A stretch of 64,000 bases of DNA, taken from contig JAHBVV010000016.1 in NCBI GenBank assembly GCA_019637335.1, forward strand, positions 62,001 to 126,000, read 5' to 3'. Of the stretch, positions 9,073-27,162 are shown piece by piece. Position 1 is the first letter of the stretch; every line of letters begins with the position of its first letter. The notes under the pieces were generated by a model. That model made no database searches and was not told the origin of the DNA. It saw only the letters and a list, made by a program, of their open reading frames with translations. Source of the stretch: Candidatus Hydrogenedentota bacterium. Lineage in GTDB: Bacteria > Hydrogenedentota > Hydrogenedentia > Hydrogenedentales > JAEUWI01. The position numbers and the translations under genes were made by a program.

Positions 9073-10437
9073 ATGAATTTTGCCGAGACATTTTCCAACC
9101 CGTCCATGTTACACGCGGCCGCTGTTCATATGCCTATCGCCGGCGCGGGCCTGGGGCTATTGCTCATCATTCTGAGCGCGCTCTTTCACCGGAACAACAT
9201 CGTGCGGGCCATCGCCGCCCTGATATTCCTGGTCGTGGCCGGATCCGCCTGGGTCGCCATTGAAACCGGGGAGCGCGCCCGTGACCTGGTGCCCAATTCA
9301 ATGCCGGCCGCTATCTGGGATCAAGTGTCCGCCCATGCCAGCTATGCGGAAAATGTCGTCTATGGCGCCGTATTCACGCTGGCCGCTCTGCTGATCGCGC
9401 TCATTCGCATCGATTCCGTGCGAATCGCCGGACTCCTGCTTGCGGCCATCGGCGCCATCGTGACCAACGTCTTCGTCATTCAGACCGGCCACCTGGGCGG
9501 TACGCTGGTGTATACCCACGGCCTCGGCACCCCCATGATGCACGCGGCGTCCCAACCCGCCCCGGCGCCGACGCCCGAACCGGCCCCGGCGCCGACGCCC
9601 GAACCGGTGCCGACGCCCGAACCGGCGCCGATGCCCGAACCGGCCCCAGCGCCTGAACCAGCGCCCGAAACCGAAACCGCGCCGGAGCCCGCGCCCGAAA
9701 CCGAAACCGCGCCAGAGCCCGCGCCGGAGCCGGAGCCCGCGCCTGAACCCGCGCCCGAAACCGAAACCGCCCCCGAGCCTACCCCCGAAGTGCCGGCGGA
9801 TCCCGCCGCGGAAACGCCGGCGGATCCCGCTATGGAAACTCCCGACGAACCTGCGCCTGCCGAACCCGCCGCAGAAACATCCGACGAACCTGCGCCTGCC
9901 GAACCCGCCGCGGAAACTCCCGCCGATCCCGACACCGAAGCCCCGGCGCCGGAAACGGCTGTGGAGGCAAATGCTGCGCCGCAGCCCGCCGACAACCCCG
10001 ACTGGCTCCCGATTCGCCCCATCTCCCGGGAAGAGGCCGAGGCCATCAGCTTCCAGCGCGACGTATTTCCCATTCTGGACGACCAGTGCATTTACTGCCA
10101 CAAGGGCAGGAAACCCGATGGCGAGTTTCTGATGACCTCCGTAGCGGACATGCTGAAGGGCGGCAAGAAGGGCGGCCCCGGCGTTGTGCCCGGCCAGCCC
10201 GACGAAAGCTCCATCGTCAAGTATATTCGCGGTATCAATAACCCCCGCATGCCCGAAGACGAACCCCCGCTTACCGAAGACATGCTCCACACGATCCGAC
10301 TCTGGATCGCCGCCGGCGCCGTGGACGATAGCGACGATGCCGCGCCCGCGCCGGAAGCGGATCCGGCGCCCGTCCAAGCGGAAGCCCCCGACACGCCGGA
10401 AGAAGCGTCCGAAACAGACGCCGCTCCCGCCGCATAG
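9073..10437 (+). CDS. membrane protein with Pro/Glu linker and planctomycete-type cytochrome c domain
   Basis: The 454-aa protein has three parts. Residues 1-155 hold about four membrane helices resembling DUF2231-type modules. Residues about 158-320 are a low-complexity linker of EPAP, EPAPE and ETAPEPAPE units. Residues about 320-430 carry one haem-c motif, Cys339-x-x-Cys342-His343 (CIYCH). The surroundings (FPILDDQC; IVKYIRG; MPEDEPPL; IRLWIAAGA) match the cytochrome C domain common in Planctomycetes surface proteins. A long extracytoplasmic arm carrying a haem is implied, so a role in periplasmic electron transfer is likely. The partner is unknown. The gene stands alone between the efflux operon and a repeat region. 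Confidence 0.85.
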   Translation: MNFAETFSNPSMLHAAAVHMPIAGAGLGLLLIILSALFHRNNIVRAIAALIFLVVAGSAWVAIETGERARDLVPNSMPAAIWDQVSAHASYAENVVYGAVFTLAALLIALIRIDSVRIAGLLLAAIGAIVTNVFVIQTGHLGGTLVYTHGLGTPMMHAASQPAPAPTPEPAPAPTPEPVPTPEPAPMPEPAPAPEPAPETETAPEPAPETETAPEPAPEPEPAPEPAPETETAPEPTPEVPADPAAETPADPAMETPDEPAPAEPAAETSDEPAPAEPAAETPADPDTEAPAPETAVEANAAPQPADNPDWLPIRPISREEAEAISFQRDVFPILDDQCIYCHKGRKPDGEFLMTSVADMLKGGKKGGPGVVPGQPDESSIVKYIRGINNPRMPEDEPPLTEDMLHTIRLWIAAGAVDDSDDAAPAPEADPAPVQAEAPDTPEEASETDAAPAA

Positions 10438-20640: not shown

Positions 20641-21267
20641 TAAGTAATTGAAATAAAAAGTGTTACGAATGGGTTCTGAGTCCGTAAAATATCCGATCGA
20701 TTCGTGTCAATTCGTGTGCATTCGTGGTTCAAAATCTTGGTTGCGGCCCAAGGCTGGGAGGCTGCGCCGGGTTCTCTGTGTACTTTGTGCTCTTTGTGGC
20801 TCCCAATCCGATCCGCCACCCGCATCGGTTTTAAGAGACTTCTTTCTTCGTGGACTTCGTGCCCTTCGTGGTGATCAATTCCTTGCTTACGGCCAGAGGC
20901 CGCCCTGTGTTCATACGTGGTTCAGGTTTCCAGCTTGGCGCCAGAGGCTGCGCTGCGTCCAGTCGTGCTTTCATTCTCATCGATCACACATCATTTCCCC
21001 GTTGCGGTGGCCTGATGGCGCCCTCCTTCTCGCGCTTACAGGTGGAGTATTTGATAGTACGAAGTAAGATAAATGCGAATATATCGTAGTCAAAACCCGC
21101 ATTCCGCGAACTTGTGAGAAAAAAATCGCGGGGCTTGCGAATAATTACACGGCATGGCATACTTCTTCCGGTGGCTTCGTGATCGTGTGTGCGATTTGAT
21201 TGATCAGGGGGCGCAACGTGCAGGGATGCGCCGTATTCAGGCCTCTCGCCTGACAGGGAGCGGAAGT
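20641..21267. other. AT-richer non-coding stretch with degenerate GTG-word repeats
   Basis: This 630-base stretch is clearly less GC-rich than its surroundings. It holds runs of similar short words: TTCGTGTCAATTCGTG with TTCGTGG (about 20700-20728), CTCTGTGTACTTTGTGC with TTTGTGG (about 20774-20802) and CTTCGTGGACTTCGTGCC with TTCGTGG (about 20847-20873). Two fragments contain GGCCAGAGGC or GCCAGAGGC. The last 150 bases should hold the promoter of the pseudopilin operon. No coding frame is convincing. Confidence 0.55.
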
Positions 21268-21732
21268 ATGCGTAAACGAACGGTCTTAAACGGTCAAGCC
21301 GGTCTAAGTCTTGTCGAGATTGTGCTGGCCGTCGCCATTTTCTCCGTCGTCATCGGAGCTACAGCGCAGTCCTTGATGTCGTTCTATGTGGGTATAGACG
21401 CACAAGAACAGCGCATTGAGGCCCTGTCCGCCGCCCGTGGCGTGCTCGACGGCTTGCGGGAAAAACGCTACGAGTTCAGGAACGACTTTCCCGATGGGCT
21501 CATCGCCTGGGTGGAGGAGAACAACGCCACGGGCTGGTCGGCGGTGGTTCCGCTCGACGGCTATTACGGCAGGCTTCCCGATCGTGCGATAGAAGCGCGC
21601 TGCTACGACACGGAGGGGAACCCGGCCAGTGACGGCGACAATCCCATCCTGGTGGAAGTGACCACGACGTGGACCGGCGGGCGCGGTCGCGCCATGTCCG
21701 CGACCGCGGTCAGCATGTTGACCAATGAGTAA
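21268..21732 (+). CDS. type IV pilin-like (pseudopilin) protein
   Basis: The 154-aa protein has a classic class III signal. A short charged leader ends in Gly, followed by LSLVEIVLAVAIFSVV with Glu at +5 after the cleavage site. The hydrophobic helix leads to a small globular domain. The ATG at 21268 was chosen because it gives the usual short leader; an upstream in-frame start at 21154 would place a long tail before the cleavage site. PilV/GspI-like minor pseudopilins have this size and layout. The stop overlaps the next start (ATGAGTAA, 21725-21732), so it heads a coupled three-gene operon. Confidence 0.88.
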   Translation: MRKRTVLNGQAGLSLVEIVLAVAIFSVVIGATAQSLMSFYVGIDAQEQRIEALSAARGVLDGLREKRYEFRNDFPDGLIAWVEENNATGWSAVVPLDGYYGRLPDRAIEARCYDTEGNPASDGDNPILVEVTTTWTGGRGRAMSATAVSMLTNE

Positions 21733-22388: not shown

Positions 22389-24695
22389 ATGAAACGGATC
22401 TGCCGTACGAAAAGGAAGCAGGCTGGCGTCGCGCTCATTTTTGCCATGCTCGCGATCATTGTTATTCTCGCCGCGCTCGGCGCGGTCATGAGCGGGCTCG
22501 TCCGCGCCAAAAGTGAAACCGACCACGCGTACCGGGCCATCCTGCTGGAGGAGGCGGCCCAGGCCGGCATCGACTGGGGTATCGAGCGCGTCTGGAACCA
22601 ATACCGCCAGGGCAGCGGCAACACCACCGGAAACGTCGCGTCGTATAAGTATTTTCTCGACAACGTGCTCGCTCTGCCCATTAATGAAGATCTGAACTTC
22701 AACGGCGTGCGCGATCCGGGCGAGGAGGGAAATGGCGACGGCACCTTCCACACGCTCCCCCAGGGCATGGACCCGCGCGGCGCGCAGTTGCTGCAGGAAC
22801 CGATGCCCCTCAAGAAACCAGGTGAGGATACGGTGTACGCCATACTGGAAAGCGTGCACGTGGCCCGATATGACACGGTCTACGACTCGCGCCTGACCAT
22901 TCGCGCCACCGCCACCCGGGACGGGGCATCCCGGACCGCCGTGCAGGTGCTGCGGATAGGCGGGTCCCCCTTTGATCACGGCCAGTTCGCCATCCTGGCC
23001 AACAACATCAGCTGCATCCTGTGCCACGCCGAGATCCGCTCGCTTGACCTCGAACAAAACGCCGACCCCGGCCTCTACGGCACATTCGACCGCATCAAAG
23101 TTGCCGCGCTGGAATCTCTGCTGGTGCGTACCGGCAGCGAGCCCAATTCCGCCGTGGCGGGAACGGTATATACCCGGGGCCGCGTCTACAAGCCCAACGG
23201 CAACGAGTATACCGCCGCCGAGTTGCAGTCGACCGCCTTCAACAGTTACCGGTTCAGTACCGACGATGGAAAGCTCGCCCAGGACGGGACCGGCAGGATG
23301 GCGCAAACCAATCTCGTAAACGCGTCGGCGAACGCCCAGGGGCAGCTCGACCCCTTCGCCAATCTCTACCTCGAATACCCCATGGATCCCGACCTGCAAA
23401 CCGACGGGCCGCTTCCGGGCTCGTTTCCCGCCCCGTATCCGGACGAAAACGGCGACCGCTATGTTGACGATTCCGAATTTGAAGTGATCGTCAATACATC
23501 TACGGGAAGCATCGGTTTTGAGGTCGGCGAAACGGACCCGAGCGGCCAGATCACCAATGGCGTCGCCTACGGCCTGCCCAAAGGAAGCGCCTTCACGGGA
23601 ACCGCGTTGCCGGCCTCCTCGAACAGCGCGCTCAGCGCCCTGGAGCAGGATGGCTACTACACCGGAAACCTCATTCTCATCGGCACCCCGGATGACCCTA
23701 TCCAGATTAAGAATACCGTCGCCGTGGACGGCGATCTGGTCATCAAGGGGGTCATCGAAGGCGAGGGCCGCCTCCTCGTGCGCGGCAACACCTATATCAT
23801 CGGCGATGTCACCTACAACGATGCGCCCGGCGAGTTCGGCAGGAACGAAGCCGGTGAAACCAACGCCTTTGCGCTGGTTTCGGGCGGAAGCGTGATGATG
23901 GGCGACTATACCACCATTCGCGGTGTGAACCACAGTTCGCGCAATAACGAAAAATATCCCGACTGGAAGCAATACAGCATCCACGCGCGGGACCGACACC
24001 GCAGTAACAACGTGTCCAGATACGGGCAAACCGAGACCCTGGAATGGGGGTATTTCGACCGCTGGTCCACCGATCCGAACGAGGTGGTTCCCGGAAAACC
24101 CGGCCAGCAATTCAGTTTCACGACCTCCGAGCTGCAAATCTTCAACAACCTGGAGTTGGACAAGGCCGTGGCGGACCCGAACTATGTCCCCCGCTTCTAC
24201 GGGCTGCGCGAGAGCCAGCCGGACAACATCTGGGTATACGACTCGACCGATGAGCACGCGGTGCGCTACTCCGAAAGCGCGGTCAAACTGCTCAGCGACT
24301 ATATCATCGAGATGGGGTATCCGCTGGAAATCCTCGACCGCGCCGCGATCCACTACCTGAACCCGGAGGGGAACTGGCTGTCCGAGGATCAGCTTCGGGA
24401 ATTCTGGTACGCGGACGAAATGACGCGCCCCAGCAGCGGCCGGCCCTACCAATTCGACGGCCTCCTCTACAGCAACAACTCGATTTTCAATATCGCGCGG
24501 AGCTACACGCGCCATTATTCGAACTCGAAAGGCAAGATGAATATCCGGGGCGGCGTCATCGCGGCGGACCTCGGTGTCTTCGTTCCCGAAGGGCTCAATG
24601 TGCTATACGACCCCCGCGTGGAGCGCTTCCTGAACGTGGCCGACACCGAACAAGTGGTGTTCGCCCGCGCCGCGTTCTACTTCGAGCGCGGTTGA
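22389..24695 (+). CDS. large PilX/GspK-like protein with a CxxCH haem motif
   Basis: The 768-aa protein starts with a charged leader and a single helix (AGVALIFAMLAIIVILAALG, about residues 12-31), as in PilX and GspK minor pilins. The exported part is long. It holds two acidic calcium-type loops (NEDLNFNGVRDPGEEGNGDG near 98-117; DENGDRYVDDSEF near 354-366). It also has a Cys209-Ile-Leu-Cys212-His213 motif in NISCILCHAEI. The middle and C-terminal parts (about 430-760) are beta-rich with repeated DGDLVIKG-like turns, suggesting a beta-helix. Fourteen bases separate it from the pseudopilin before it. A tip or surface role is likely; haem attachment is not proven. Confidence 0.8.
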   Translation: MKRICRTKRKQAGVALIFAMLAIIVILAALGAVMSGLVRAKSETDHAYRAILLEEAAQAGIDWGIERVWNQYRQGSGNTTGNVASYKYFLDNVLALPINEDLNFNGVRDPGEEGNGDGTFHTLPQGMDPRGAQLLQEPMPLKKPGEDTVYAILESVHVARYDTVYDSRLTIRATATRDGASRTAVQVLRIGGSPFDHGQFAILANNISCILCHAEIRSLDLEQNADPGLYGTFDRIKVAALESLLVRTGSEPNSAVAGTVYTRGRVYKPNGNEYTAAELQSTAFNSYRFSTDDGKLAQDGTGRMAQTNLVNASANAQGQLDPFANLYLEYPMDPDLQTDGPLPGSFPAPYPDENGDRYVDDSEFEVIVNTSTGSIGFEVGETDPSGQITNGVAYGLPKGSAFTGTALPASSNSALSALEQDGYYTGNLILIGTPDDPIQIKNTVAVDGDLVIKGVIEGEGRLLVRGNTYIIGDVTYNDAPGEFGRNEAGETNAFALVSGGSVMMGDYTTIRGVNHSSRNNEKYPDWKQYSIHARDRHRSNNVSRYGQTETLEWGYFDRWSTDPNEVVPGKPGQQFSFTTSELQIFNNLELDKAVADPNYVPRFYGLRESQPDNIWVYDSTDEHAVRYSESAVKLLSDYIIEMGYPLEILDRAAIHYLNPEGNWLSEDQLREFWYADEMTRPSSGRPYQFDGLLYSNNSIFNIARSYTRHYSNSKGKMNIRGGVIAADLGVFVPEGLNVLYDPRVERFLNVADTEQVVFARAAFYFERG

Positions 24696-24739
24696 GACCG
24701 CCCGTGAAATTCGCTCCAACGACAGGAAGGACCAACGTG

Positions 24740-25663
24740 ATGCGCATGGTGATCTGGGGCGGCGCGGTCGCGCTCATGGCGTGGGCCGCCGCCGCATATG
24801 CGGACACGATCCACTTGAAAAACGGCATCCGCTTCGATGGCGTCGTTACGCCCGTACCGGATCAGGAAGGCATGTACCGCGTGAAAGCGGGCCGGCGAAA
24901 TCTAATCTATCGCGCCGATGAAATTGAGCGCATCGAAAAGAACGACAAGACCGGCCACCTCGATCGGGACGCCTTGCGCGCGCGCTGGGAGGCCACGAAC
25001 AAGGCCCTCACCGAGGAAACCGGCCTTACCGCGGAGCAGCGACGTCTCGTTCGCGGGCTGATCTTCGAATTGAAATCGGAAAGCGACGCGAGGCGGCGGG
25101 CCATCCGCGAGCAGCTCGCCGCGCTTCAGGCCGAGTTCGACGCCTTCGGCTATATCGTATTCATGTATCCCGAGCTGTCCAGTCTGCTCGCGCCAGCCGT
25201 TCTGGAGACGCTGTTCGCGATCGACCCGCCTCGCAGCCTGGAAACGATCATGGCCGGCGCCGAAAGCGCCTATTTTGGCGTTCGCGCCATGGCCATCGAC
25301 CTTCTGGGCCGCGCCGCGCCGCCGGGCGCCGTGCCCCTCGTCGCCCGCGGCCTGGCGGATCACATGCCGGAAGTTCGGATCGCGGCCGCCTACGCGCTCG
25401 CGTCCCTCGGTGCGCGCGAAGCCACCCCGGCGCTGATAGGCCAGTTGTCCTACCTCGATCAGCGGGTATCGAACGCCGCGCGCGAGGCGCTTGCAAGCGT
25501 CTGGGGTGAGCGCCTCGGCGAGCAGAGGCCGGCAACGGTCGACGAATGGAATGCGTTCTGGTCCGCCCAATCCGTCTCCGGAGCAACGATCGCGCTCGAC
25601 AAGCTCAAACCCCTAATCGCCCCCGAGGACGAGCAGACGGTAAGCTACGACGCGAACCACTGA
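24740..25663 (+). CDS. secreted HEAT-repeat protein
   Basis: The 307-aa protein has a signal peptide (about 1-21), a small beta domain (DTIHLKNGIRFDGVVTPV to about residue 65), a charged helical segment (about 75-130) and HEAT/Armadillo-like repeats (about 165-260; AYFGVRAMAIDLLGRAA, MPEVRIAAAYALASLG). The beta part resembles the N-terminal module seen in many secreted proteins with ADTI(H/V)LKNG. The ATG at 24740 is preferred for its AGGAAGG ribosome site; the frame is open back to 24692. It follows the pilin-like operon by 44 bases and may be its last gene. A protein-interaction role is inferred from the repeats. Confidence 0.8.
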   Translation: MRMVIWGGAVALMAWAAAAYADTIHLKNGIRFDGVVTPVPDQEGMYRVKAGRRNLIYRADEIERIEKNDKTGHLDRDALRARWEATNKALTEETGLTAEQRRLVRGLIFELKSESDARRRAIREQLAALQAEFDAFGYIVFMYPELSSLLAPAVLETLFAIDPPRSLETIMAGAESAYFGVRAMAIDLLGRAAPPGAVPLVARGLADHMPEVRIAAAYALASLGAREATPALIGQLSYLDQRVSNAAREALASVWGERLGEQRPATVDEWNAFWSAQSVSGATIALDKLKPLIAPEDEQTVSYDANH

Positions 25664-25707: not shown

Positions 25708-26058
25708 GATTCGTATTCCGCGCCACCAGGCGCAAAGGATCGCGGATTATTTCTGTCCGCAGTAACGCGAGCCCGACCTACCCCCAAGTCACACGTCTCT
25801 CTGCCCGCGCCCGCGACTTCCGATGCCATTGCCTCGGAGCAAGCTCCCGGGACTCTCGAAATCCAAACCGGCTTCAGTCCCGGTCATGCCTAGAACGGGC
25901 CTGTCAACCCTCCATCCAAAAACCATGAAAAGAATTCACACTGCCCAATTGCTCTCAAGGAAGATTTCGCGCCTGGCAAGCGCTTGATCTAAAATAACTC
26001 CGCCCCTCCACGGCGGGGGCGCGATGTGATGTCGACCCGATTCCAGGAGCCCGCGCCC
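25708..26058. other. intergenic region without a recognised element
   Basis: About 350 bases lie between the terminator and the dihaem cytochrome. I see no open frame, tRNA or repeat shared with other parts of the window. A promoter for the cytochrome is expected near 25980-26010, where the sequence becomes AT-richer (GATCTAAAATAAC), but no clear box pair stands out. Confidence 0.4.
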
Positions 26059-27162
26059 ATGAACCTGACCCGTACCTTCGTTTTCCTCGCCAGCGTCTGT
26101 GCGATTGGCGCTATGCCCTGCGCCGCGGCGGTTGGTTCGGTCAGCTTCGATCCCGAAGCCCCGCCCGCCCGGCACATCTCCGAATACAACCTGTTCAAGG
26201 ATCCCGCGCGTCAGATTCCAAACGACGGCGTGCTGCCCTACGACCTGAACACCCCGCTCTTCTCGGATTACGCCAGCAAGCACCGCTTCGTCTGGATGCC
26301 GCCGGGGACTGCGGCGCGCTACGATCGGCGCGGCCCCTTTGAATTCCCCGTCGGCGCCGTGCTCGTGAAAACATTCAGCTATCCCCATGACCTGCGTGCC
26401 CCGGAAAAGGGCGAGCGCCTCATCGAGACGCGCCTCCTCGTGCACAAGCCCGAGGGTTGGCTGGGCTTCTCGTACATCTGGAACGAGGATGCCACCGACG
26501 CGCGGCTCGCCGTGGCCGGCGGGCGCGTGGATGTCTCCTGGATACACTACGATGGCGGGCAGCGCGAGTTGAAGGGTTACATCATCCCCAACATGAACGA
26601 GTGCAAGCAGTGCCACGAGCTTGGCGGGCGCCTCCAGCCCATCGGCCCCCAGGCCCGCCACCTGAATAAGGATTATGACTACGGGGACGCCATCATGAAC
26701 CAACTCGCCCGCTGGACCGATGCGGGCTACCTCGAAGGCGCCCCGGCCCCCGACGAGGCGCCCCGCGTACCGGATGCGGATAATCCCGCAAGCGGCTCGC
26801 TCGCCGAACGCGCCCGCGCCTACCTGGACATCAACTGCGCCCACTGTCACAACCCCCGCGGACCAGCCCACATGTCCGGCCTGGACCTGTCCTACCGTCA
26901 GGACGACCCCGCCAGGTTCGGTGTCTTCAAGCCCCCCATCGCGGCGGGGCGCGGCTCCGGCGGACACCGCTTCGGCATCGAGCCCGGCAGCCCCGATACC
27001 TCCATCCTCATCCACCGCATCGAAAGCACCGAACCCGGCGTCATGATGCCCCCGCTGCCCCTCCGCACGAACCACGACGAGGGCATCGCCCTGCTCCGGC
27101 AGTGGGTCCTCGAAATGCAGGCGGAAGTCGGCGCCGACAACCGGGTGACCCTGGGGGAATAG
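26059..27162 (+). CDS. secreted dihaem cytochrome c, SO2930-like
   Basis: The 367-aa protein has a signal peptide (about 1-24) and two haem-c motifs, Cys182-x-x-Cys185-His186 (CKQCH) and Cys260-x-x-Cys263-His264 (CAHCH). The N-terminal domain (SEYNLFKDPARQIPNDGVLPYDLNTPLFSDYA, written here in parts: SEYNLFKD, VLPYDLNTPLFSDYA) and KTFSYPHDL are hallmarks of the SO2930 family. That family is known as periplasmic or outer-surface haem proteins of unsettled function. The ATG at 26059 is used because an AGGAG site precedes it and a signal peptide follows at once. The gene is monocistronic and convergent with the GmrSD-type gene. Confidence 0.9.
   Translation: MNLTRTFVFLASVCAIGAMPCAAAVGSVSFDPEAPPARHISEYNLFKDPARQIPNDGVLPYDLNTPLFSDYASKHRFVWMPPGTAARYDRRGPFEFPVGAVLVKTFSYPHDLRAPEKGERLIETRLLVHKPEGWLGFSYIWNEDATDARLAVAGGRVDVSWIHYDGGQRELKGYIIPNMNECKQCHELGGRLQPIGPQARHLNKDYDYGDAIMNQLARWTDAGYLEGAPAPDEAPRVPDADNPASGSLAERARAYLDINCAHCHNPRGPAHMSGLDLSYRQDDPARFGVFKPPIAAGRGSGGHRFGIEPGSPDTSILIHRIESTEPGVMMPPLPLRTNHDEGIALLRQWVLEMQAEVGADNRVTLGE

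Follow-up and report, generated by a model that had tools for sequence, protein, structure and literature searches.

We identified, in a 64,000-nucleotide stretch of a 'Candidatus Hydrogenedentota' genome (hereafter the window), a gene whose product is very likely a tip pilin and which contains a single CxxCH motif, the signature of covalent haem c attachment. The most fitting description of its family is a widespread variant of ComZ-type tip pilins with one predicted haem c; we have not found such a variant reported before. Few bacterial machines have been studied as much as type IV pili, and the motif is conserved in at least four phyla but missing from the ComZ proteins that those genomes encode. 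If the prediction is true, the tip of the pilus would carry a new cofactor, which raises the prospect that the tip senses redox state or gases, or that its stability is under cofactor control.

The gene and its neighbourhood

The host genome comprises 7.16 Mb in 55 contigs. According to the open reading frame list of the window and its translation, the frame on the forward strand encodes 768 amino acids (Table 1), and its codon-position GC content (0.61/0.43/0.80), together with the existence of homologues, indicates that it is a real gene. The protein contains one CxxCH at residues 209-213 (C209, C212 and H213), as originally annotated, and its only other cysteine is C5 in the leader. By composition, about 0.0006 CxxCH motifs per protein would be expected by chance. 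Searches with the window protein returned no Pfam family at E <= 1 and a match at chance level in NCBIfam.

The first-pass annotation assigned the protein a PilX/GspK-type N-terminus. This is supported by the long helix and by the near-invariant G13 of the prepilin leader, present in 84 of the 86 full-length proteins that we refer to as clade A and in all ten of the more distant clade B, but not by profile searches, in which Pfam PilX_N matches 12 and NCBIfam GspK 10 of 42 relatives (E <= 0.01) and the window protein is matched by neither. The Glu5 that the leader lacks is also generally missing in GspK and PilX types.

Two prepilin genes precede the pilin gene on the same strand, with an 8-base overlap between them and a 13-base gap before position 22389, so co-transcription of all three, as the gene layout suggests, is likely. 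Their order (PilV/GspI-like, PilW/GspJ-like, PilX/GspK-like) would also suit the periplasmic pseudopilus of a type II secretion system (GspI-J-K), serving protein secretion with or without a haem, and the GspK matches among the relatives point in the same direction. We consider such a pseudopilus quite improbable, given that the predicted fold matches ComZ with its solenoid and that the Meiothermus genes sit near comZ. The 18 matches to PilB/PilT/GspE-type ATPases (PF00437) in the host genome, eight of them long, suggest several type IV filament systems and do not decide between pilus and pseudopilus. PilY1 (PF05567) had no match in the host genome, but it had none in any control genome either, so this search carries no weight in either direction.

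Table 1. Features of the pilin gene and its neighbours, in window positions
Feature	Position	Strand	Basis
Minor prepilin, PilV/GspI-like, likely true start 21268	21154..21732	+	PF07963 over cut-off; weak GspI/PilV matches
Minor prepilin, PilW/GspJ-like, with its own calcium-type loop	21725..22375	+	PF07963 over cut-off; weak GspJ match
Very likely ComZ-like/PilX-type tip minor pilin, single CxxCH	22389..24695	+	Relatives, models, fold matches
Class III (prepilin) leader, residues 1-13, ending at G13, without Glu5	22389..22427	+	G13 conservation
Predicted N-terminal helix and first part of pilin fold, residues 14-195	22428..22973	+	Model; VIA match to PilA minor pilin 7o5y, Z 8.3
Calcium-type loop 1, residues 101-112	22689..22724	+	Part of Hydrogenedentota only
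Predicted segment between first pilin part and last strand	22974..24623	+	VIA matches to 3vn3 (model residues 196-741, Z 12.2) and ComZ 6qvi
CxxCH (C209-I-L-C212-H213), predicted turn between strands 200-208 and 214-218 at solenoid start	23013..23027	+	Translation, model, 112/117 relatives
Calcium-type loop 2, EF-hand-like, D352-E363	23442..23477	+	Near-invariant in clade A
H709, candidate distal ligand	24513..24515	+	Conserved only in Hydrogenedentota
Predicted last pilin-fold strand, residues 751-765, after solenoid insertion	24639..24683	+	Model; ComZ topology (PMC6561018)
Secreted HEAT-repeat protein, likely start 24737	24692..25663	+	PF13646

Partner prepilins are common at these loci. 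For 71 CxxCH members, at least 1.4 kb of flanking sequence was available on either side. In 59 of these a same-strand prepilin motif lies no more than 1.6 kb away, and in 53 there are at least two such motifs, as against 4 of 126 control segments taken from further away; no adjacent prepilin was recognised for the remaining 12 members. The partners lie upstream in most Hydrogenedentota and Zixibacteria, and Deinococcota mostly have three downstream. At two Meiothermus loci a CxxCH member is found 1-6 kb from comZ (identified by phmmer at E 3.4e-98 and 6.4e-101). One of them (L182) has the order comZ, a histidine kinase, three prepilins with a DUF4900 protein, a LuxR-type response regulator, and the CxxCH pilin with its partners. 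Three minor-pilin sets, marked by comZ, the DUF4900 protein and the CxxCH pilin, thus stand in a row (L182:1593-13021), and the kinase and response regulator between them make a regulatory link possible. At the other locus, L176, the CxxCH member belongs to clade B, and about 1.3 kb separates it from comZ.

Downstream of the pilin gene, the window encodes a HEAT-repeat protein that is possibly a partner of the pilin. The start pattern of its mature part (ADTIHLKNG) recurs just downstream of the pilin at other Hydrogenedentota loci (10 of the 110 loci listed).

Three other CxxCH proteins or motifs had been counted in the vicinity. The three motifs are present, but they belong to only two proteins: a 454-amino-acid protein (9073-10437, forward strand) that has PF07635, the Planctomycete cytochrome C domain, close to its C-terminus, and a dihaem c-type cytochrome of the SO2930 family (26026-27162, forward strand; TIGR03806, E 3e-120). 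We considered a shared system of the pilin and its neighbouring cytochromes and rejected it: among the Hydrogenedentota loci mapped, an open reading frame with the same two motifs as the dihaem gene was seen near the pilin at one locus only (L033). These cytochromes look unrelated to the pilin.

Predicted structure

We predicted structures for the window protein (model 1) and for a Meiothermus relative (model 2) with AlphaFold2, each from 28 sequences; they reached pLDDT 82.5 and pTM 0.74, and pLDDT 85.2 and pTM 0.79, respectively. Model 1 has a helix over residues 3-75. In both models the pilin-type sheet is followed by two strands joined by a turn, which is formed by the CxxCH, and a beta-solenoid is inserted before the last pilin strand, in agreement with the topology given for ComZ (PMC6561018). 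The motif would thereby lie near the junction of the pilin and solenoid domains.

The best VIA-align (VIA) match of both models is ComZ (6qvi), with Z 12.6, 354 residues aligned and rmsd 11.9 for model 1 and Z 14.5, 347 residues and rmsd 11.2 for model 2, high rmsd values that would be expected from a domain shift but also from a partial match. Foldseek likewise placed ComZ first for model 1 (E 1.4e-4); for model 2, Foldseek alone returned nothing at 1e-3. The next VIA matches of model 1 are ice-binding solenoids (3vn3, Z 12.2, tied), followed by the minor pilin 7o5y. Sequence similarity to ComZ is marginal and limited to the pilin domain (profile E 0.032 with profile A3 and 0.13 with A2), and the best hit in sequence searches of the PDB had E 0.03. 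A match to cytochrome c 28pb (E 0.9-0.99), covering just the surroundings of the CxxCH, was taken as chance. The original description of a tip-like minor pilin is well supported by the fold match to ComZ and by the minor-pilin neighbours, and analogy with ComZ and GspK suggests the position at the tip.

Two calcium-type loops had also been described, and both were found (residues 101-112 and 352-363). The first is confined to some Hydrogenedentota (D101 in 25 of 38 sequences). The second is near-invariant in clade A, where D352 and E363 are each present in 92 of 93 sequences. The clade B alignment does not match this second loop; by eye, most of the 14 clade B sequences have in the same region a D-x-D-G-D-G-like stretch before an ending of the 'DFP' type.

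Conservation and loss of the CxxCH motif

The first-pass annotation had tied the haem to conservation of the motif among homologues, and this conservation is extensive. C209, C212 and H213 are invariant in all 28 close relatives aligned, and CxxCH is present in 112 of 117 non-redundant relatives that cover the site. The census started from 238 loci, comprising best matches and chosen ones rather than every genomic match. A search of these with the A2 profile (E <= 1e-4) yielded 261 open frames, of which 169 remained once redundancy was removed. Tightening the cut-off to E <= 1e-34 left 122 proteins, five of which were truncated by contig ends before the site and were dropped; the resulting proportion should be read in light of the profile, itself built from motif-bearing proteins. 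Between 1e-34 and 1e-15 there are 18 further proteins, and CxxCH is present in two (L227 and L228) and absent in 16.

Every one of the 112 proteins has exactly one CxxCH, and 22 of them have no further cysteine. The motif residues are the only Cys or His conserved in both clades (85/86 in clade A, 10/10 in clade B). In a comparison group of ten related solenoid pilins the motif is absent and the position of the first Cys is occupied by Trp. F346-P347 is kept in clades A and B and falls in a gap in all ten comparison proteins, seven of which have Asp at the position of D339, just before this pair.

Five census proteins lack the motif. In three of them, one from Deinococcota (L166) and two mutually close ones from Planctomycetota (L221 and L222), all three motif residues (both Cys and the His) are replaced, and no partial motif was found in these three or among the 112. 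These three keep the clade A calcium loop despite the loss of CxxCH, and their genomes still encode a motif-bearing clade B copy. Since the protein persists after motif loss in these cases, the pilin fold does not require CxxCH. The other two (L225 and L226) resemble the CxxCH-less solenoid type by profile match and are not on the tree, which was computed by a quick method from the 70 of 112 rows left after thinning. The tree has at least three label changes, and because its root is arbitrary, one gain followed by losses and two gains fit it equally.

Evidence bearing on a haem

Survival of the motif at 25-30% identity in four phyla, where it is kept or lost whole, strongly suggests the haem c site that had been proposed, and on these sequence grounds we regard a covalent haem on the window protein as likely. 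The motif is on an exported domain, and the prepilin topology would place it outside the membrane. The haem lyase PF01578 was found in the host genome, in 42 of 43 Hydrogenedentota carriers and in 16 of 17 chosen genomes, with the same genome (G012) as the sole miss both times. It is also present in 22 of 25 Hydrogenedentota without the pilin gene and in 109 of 111 Deinococcota, most of which have no full-length relative. Near-universal in carriers yet found in non-carriers too, the lyase is thus permissive for haem attachment rather than indicative of it. One genome in which a single copy has lost the motif (G149) still has the lyase, so loss of the machinery does not explain this motif loss.

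The distal Met or His ligand that might have been expected from the earlier description was not found: outside the motif, none is conserved across the family. We considered H709 (28/28 close relatives) and M717 (27/28) as family-wide ligands and rejected them, as M717 varies and H709, present in 37 of 38 Hydrogenedentota, occurs in 0 of 69 sequences elsewhere. A five-coordinate haem or a lineage-specific sixth ligand would fit this pattern, with H709 as the candidate in Hydrogenedentota. In ice-binding solenoids the turns are stacked, and one idea, by analogy, is that the H709 turn may stack near the CxxCH turn. When 42 members were compared with profile libraries, none matched a cytochrome family at E <= 0.01.

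The missing distal ligand and cytochrome match, and the persistence of the protein after motif loss, would also be accounted for if the motif were instead a CxxC disulfide, or a Zn or Fe site, that stiffens the junction of pilin and solenoid without any haem; in the models the motif occupies a tight turn between two strands, where a disulfide would fit too. The His argues against a disulfide, as it is as invariant as the two Cys and is lost together with them, with no partial motif among the 112 proteins or the three losses, and for a metal site there is no other invariant Cys or His to complete the coordination. We therefore regard this alternative as unlikely and favour a haem.

Relation to known systems and proposed role

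Multihaem filaments had been brought up for comparison. OmcS-type filaments are polymers of multihaem cytochromes with no pilin domain. They share with the window family a haem in an extracellular filament, predicted in our case, but the window family has a single motif, located in a capping subunit, and the comparison does not fit. With one motif per protein (112/112) and no CxxCH in either of the minor pilins encoded next to the window protein, there would be no haem chain to the cell. This also weighs against a tip cytochrome that passes electrons to or from minerals, cells or soluble shuttles. A haem on the tip of an extended filament would be well placed for such exchange, and two other CxxCH proteins are encoded in the window; the dihaem gene, however, recurs near the pilin only at L033 among the mapped Hydrogenedentota loci, and we rate electron transfer at the tip as very improbable.

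GspK, the tip pseudopilin of type II secretion, belongs to the same prepilin class as the window protein, and we know of no CxxCH in it. Its insert is described as helical in the ComZ study (PMC6561018), whereas the window family has a predicted solenoid. Closer in architecture is ComZ of Thermus thermophilus (6qvi), which, according to the same source, has a GspK-like pilin domain with a beta-solenoid before the last strand, is encoded with minor pilins as here, binds DNA and serves competence (PMC6561018). Unlike the window family, the ComZ-type proteins examined (558-634 amino acids) have no CxxCH.

Full-text searches of open-access literature turned up no haem-bearing pilin, and the nearest case was TfcP of Myxococcus xanthus. 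TfcP is a c-type cytochrome with a single CxxCH that is connected with calcium and with how the tip of the type IV pilus functions, and it promotes calcium binding by PilY1 for pilus formation (PMC8833165). It is not itself a pilus component: it is soluble and periplasmic, carries a type I signal peptide and a cytochrome c domain, and has a Cys as distal ligand (PMC8833165). The window protein, unlike TfcP, has a prepilin leader and a predicted pilin fold, and its motif is inside the pilin itself.

The explanation that we favour, and hold to be reasonably probable as a whole, is a ComZ-like tip pilin with one predicted covalent haem c that has a structural or redox/ligand-responsive role. The periplasmic part would receive one haem c while the protein is still anchored in the inner membrane, an attachment step to which the motif, its retention or loss as a whole and the presence of haem lyases all point. 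The haem would be bonded to C209 and C212 and axially ligated by H213, at the start of the solenoid beside the pilin domain. Its sixth position is probably either free, weakly occupied or filled differently between lineages (by H709 in Hydrogenedentota). Combined in one protein with a near-invariant calcium-type loop, the haem could form a structural or redox/ligand-responsive centre, and this predicted centre may set the conformation or stability of the tip.

Perhaps the haem serves the tip as such a centre rather than as an electron wire, which we propose tentatively. A narrower version, which we advance as speculation and think somewhat unlikely, is that type IV pilus tips with both a covalent haem c and a calcium loop form a widespread class, in which the redox state, or a small ligand such as O2, NO or peroxide at an open haem, alters tip conformation, adhesion or filament priming. 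If this were true, the haem/calcium partnership of TfcP and PilY1 would be contained within one tip pilin, and the pilus would respond to the chemistry of the surface that it touches.

Distribution of relatives

With the window protein as query, 39 of 60 relative genomes had a match. Profile searches detected the protein, whole or partial, in 43 of 68 Hydrogenedentota genomes, all of which belong to one order. A contig scan with two protein stretches outside the motif recovered 59 loci in Hydrogenedentota, Zixibacteria, Planctomycetota and Deinococcota, and further records labelled Nitrospiraceae (one) or 'uncultured bacterium' (several). Named isolates with a CxxCH pilin belong to Meiothermus and Calidithermus.

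The profile searches were extended to 111 Deinococcota, 118 sampled Zixibacteria and 246 sampled Planctomycetota. Ten of the Zixibacteria match at E 1e-104 or better, and 26 of the Planctomycetota match at 1e-20, motif-less types included. Tallies at 1e-3 in Deinococcota and Zixibacteria are inflated by other pilins that match in the N-terminal part only, and are not family counts. Related solenoid pilins without the motif were observed at L089, L129, L193-L198 and L200 (Planctomycetota and Zixibacteria), and genome G079 alone yielded 13 profile matches.
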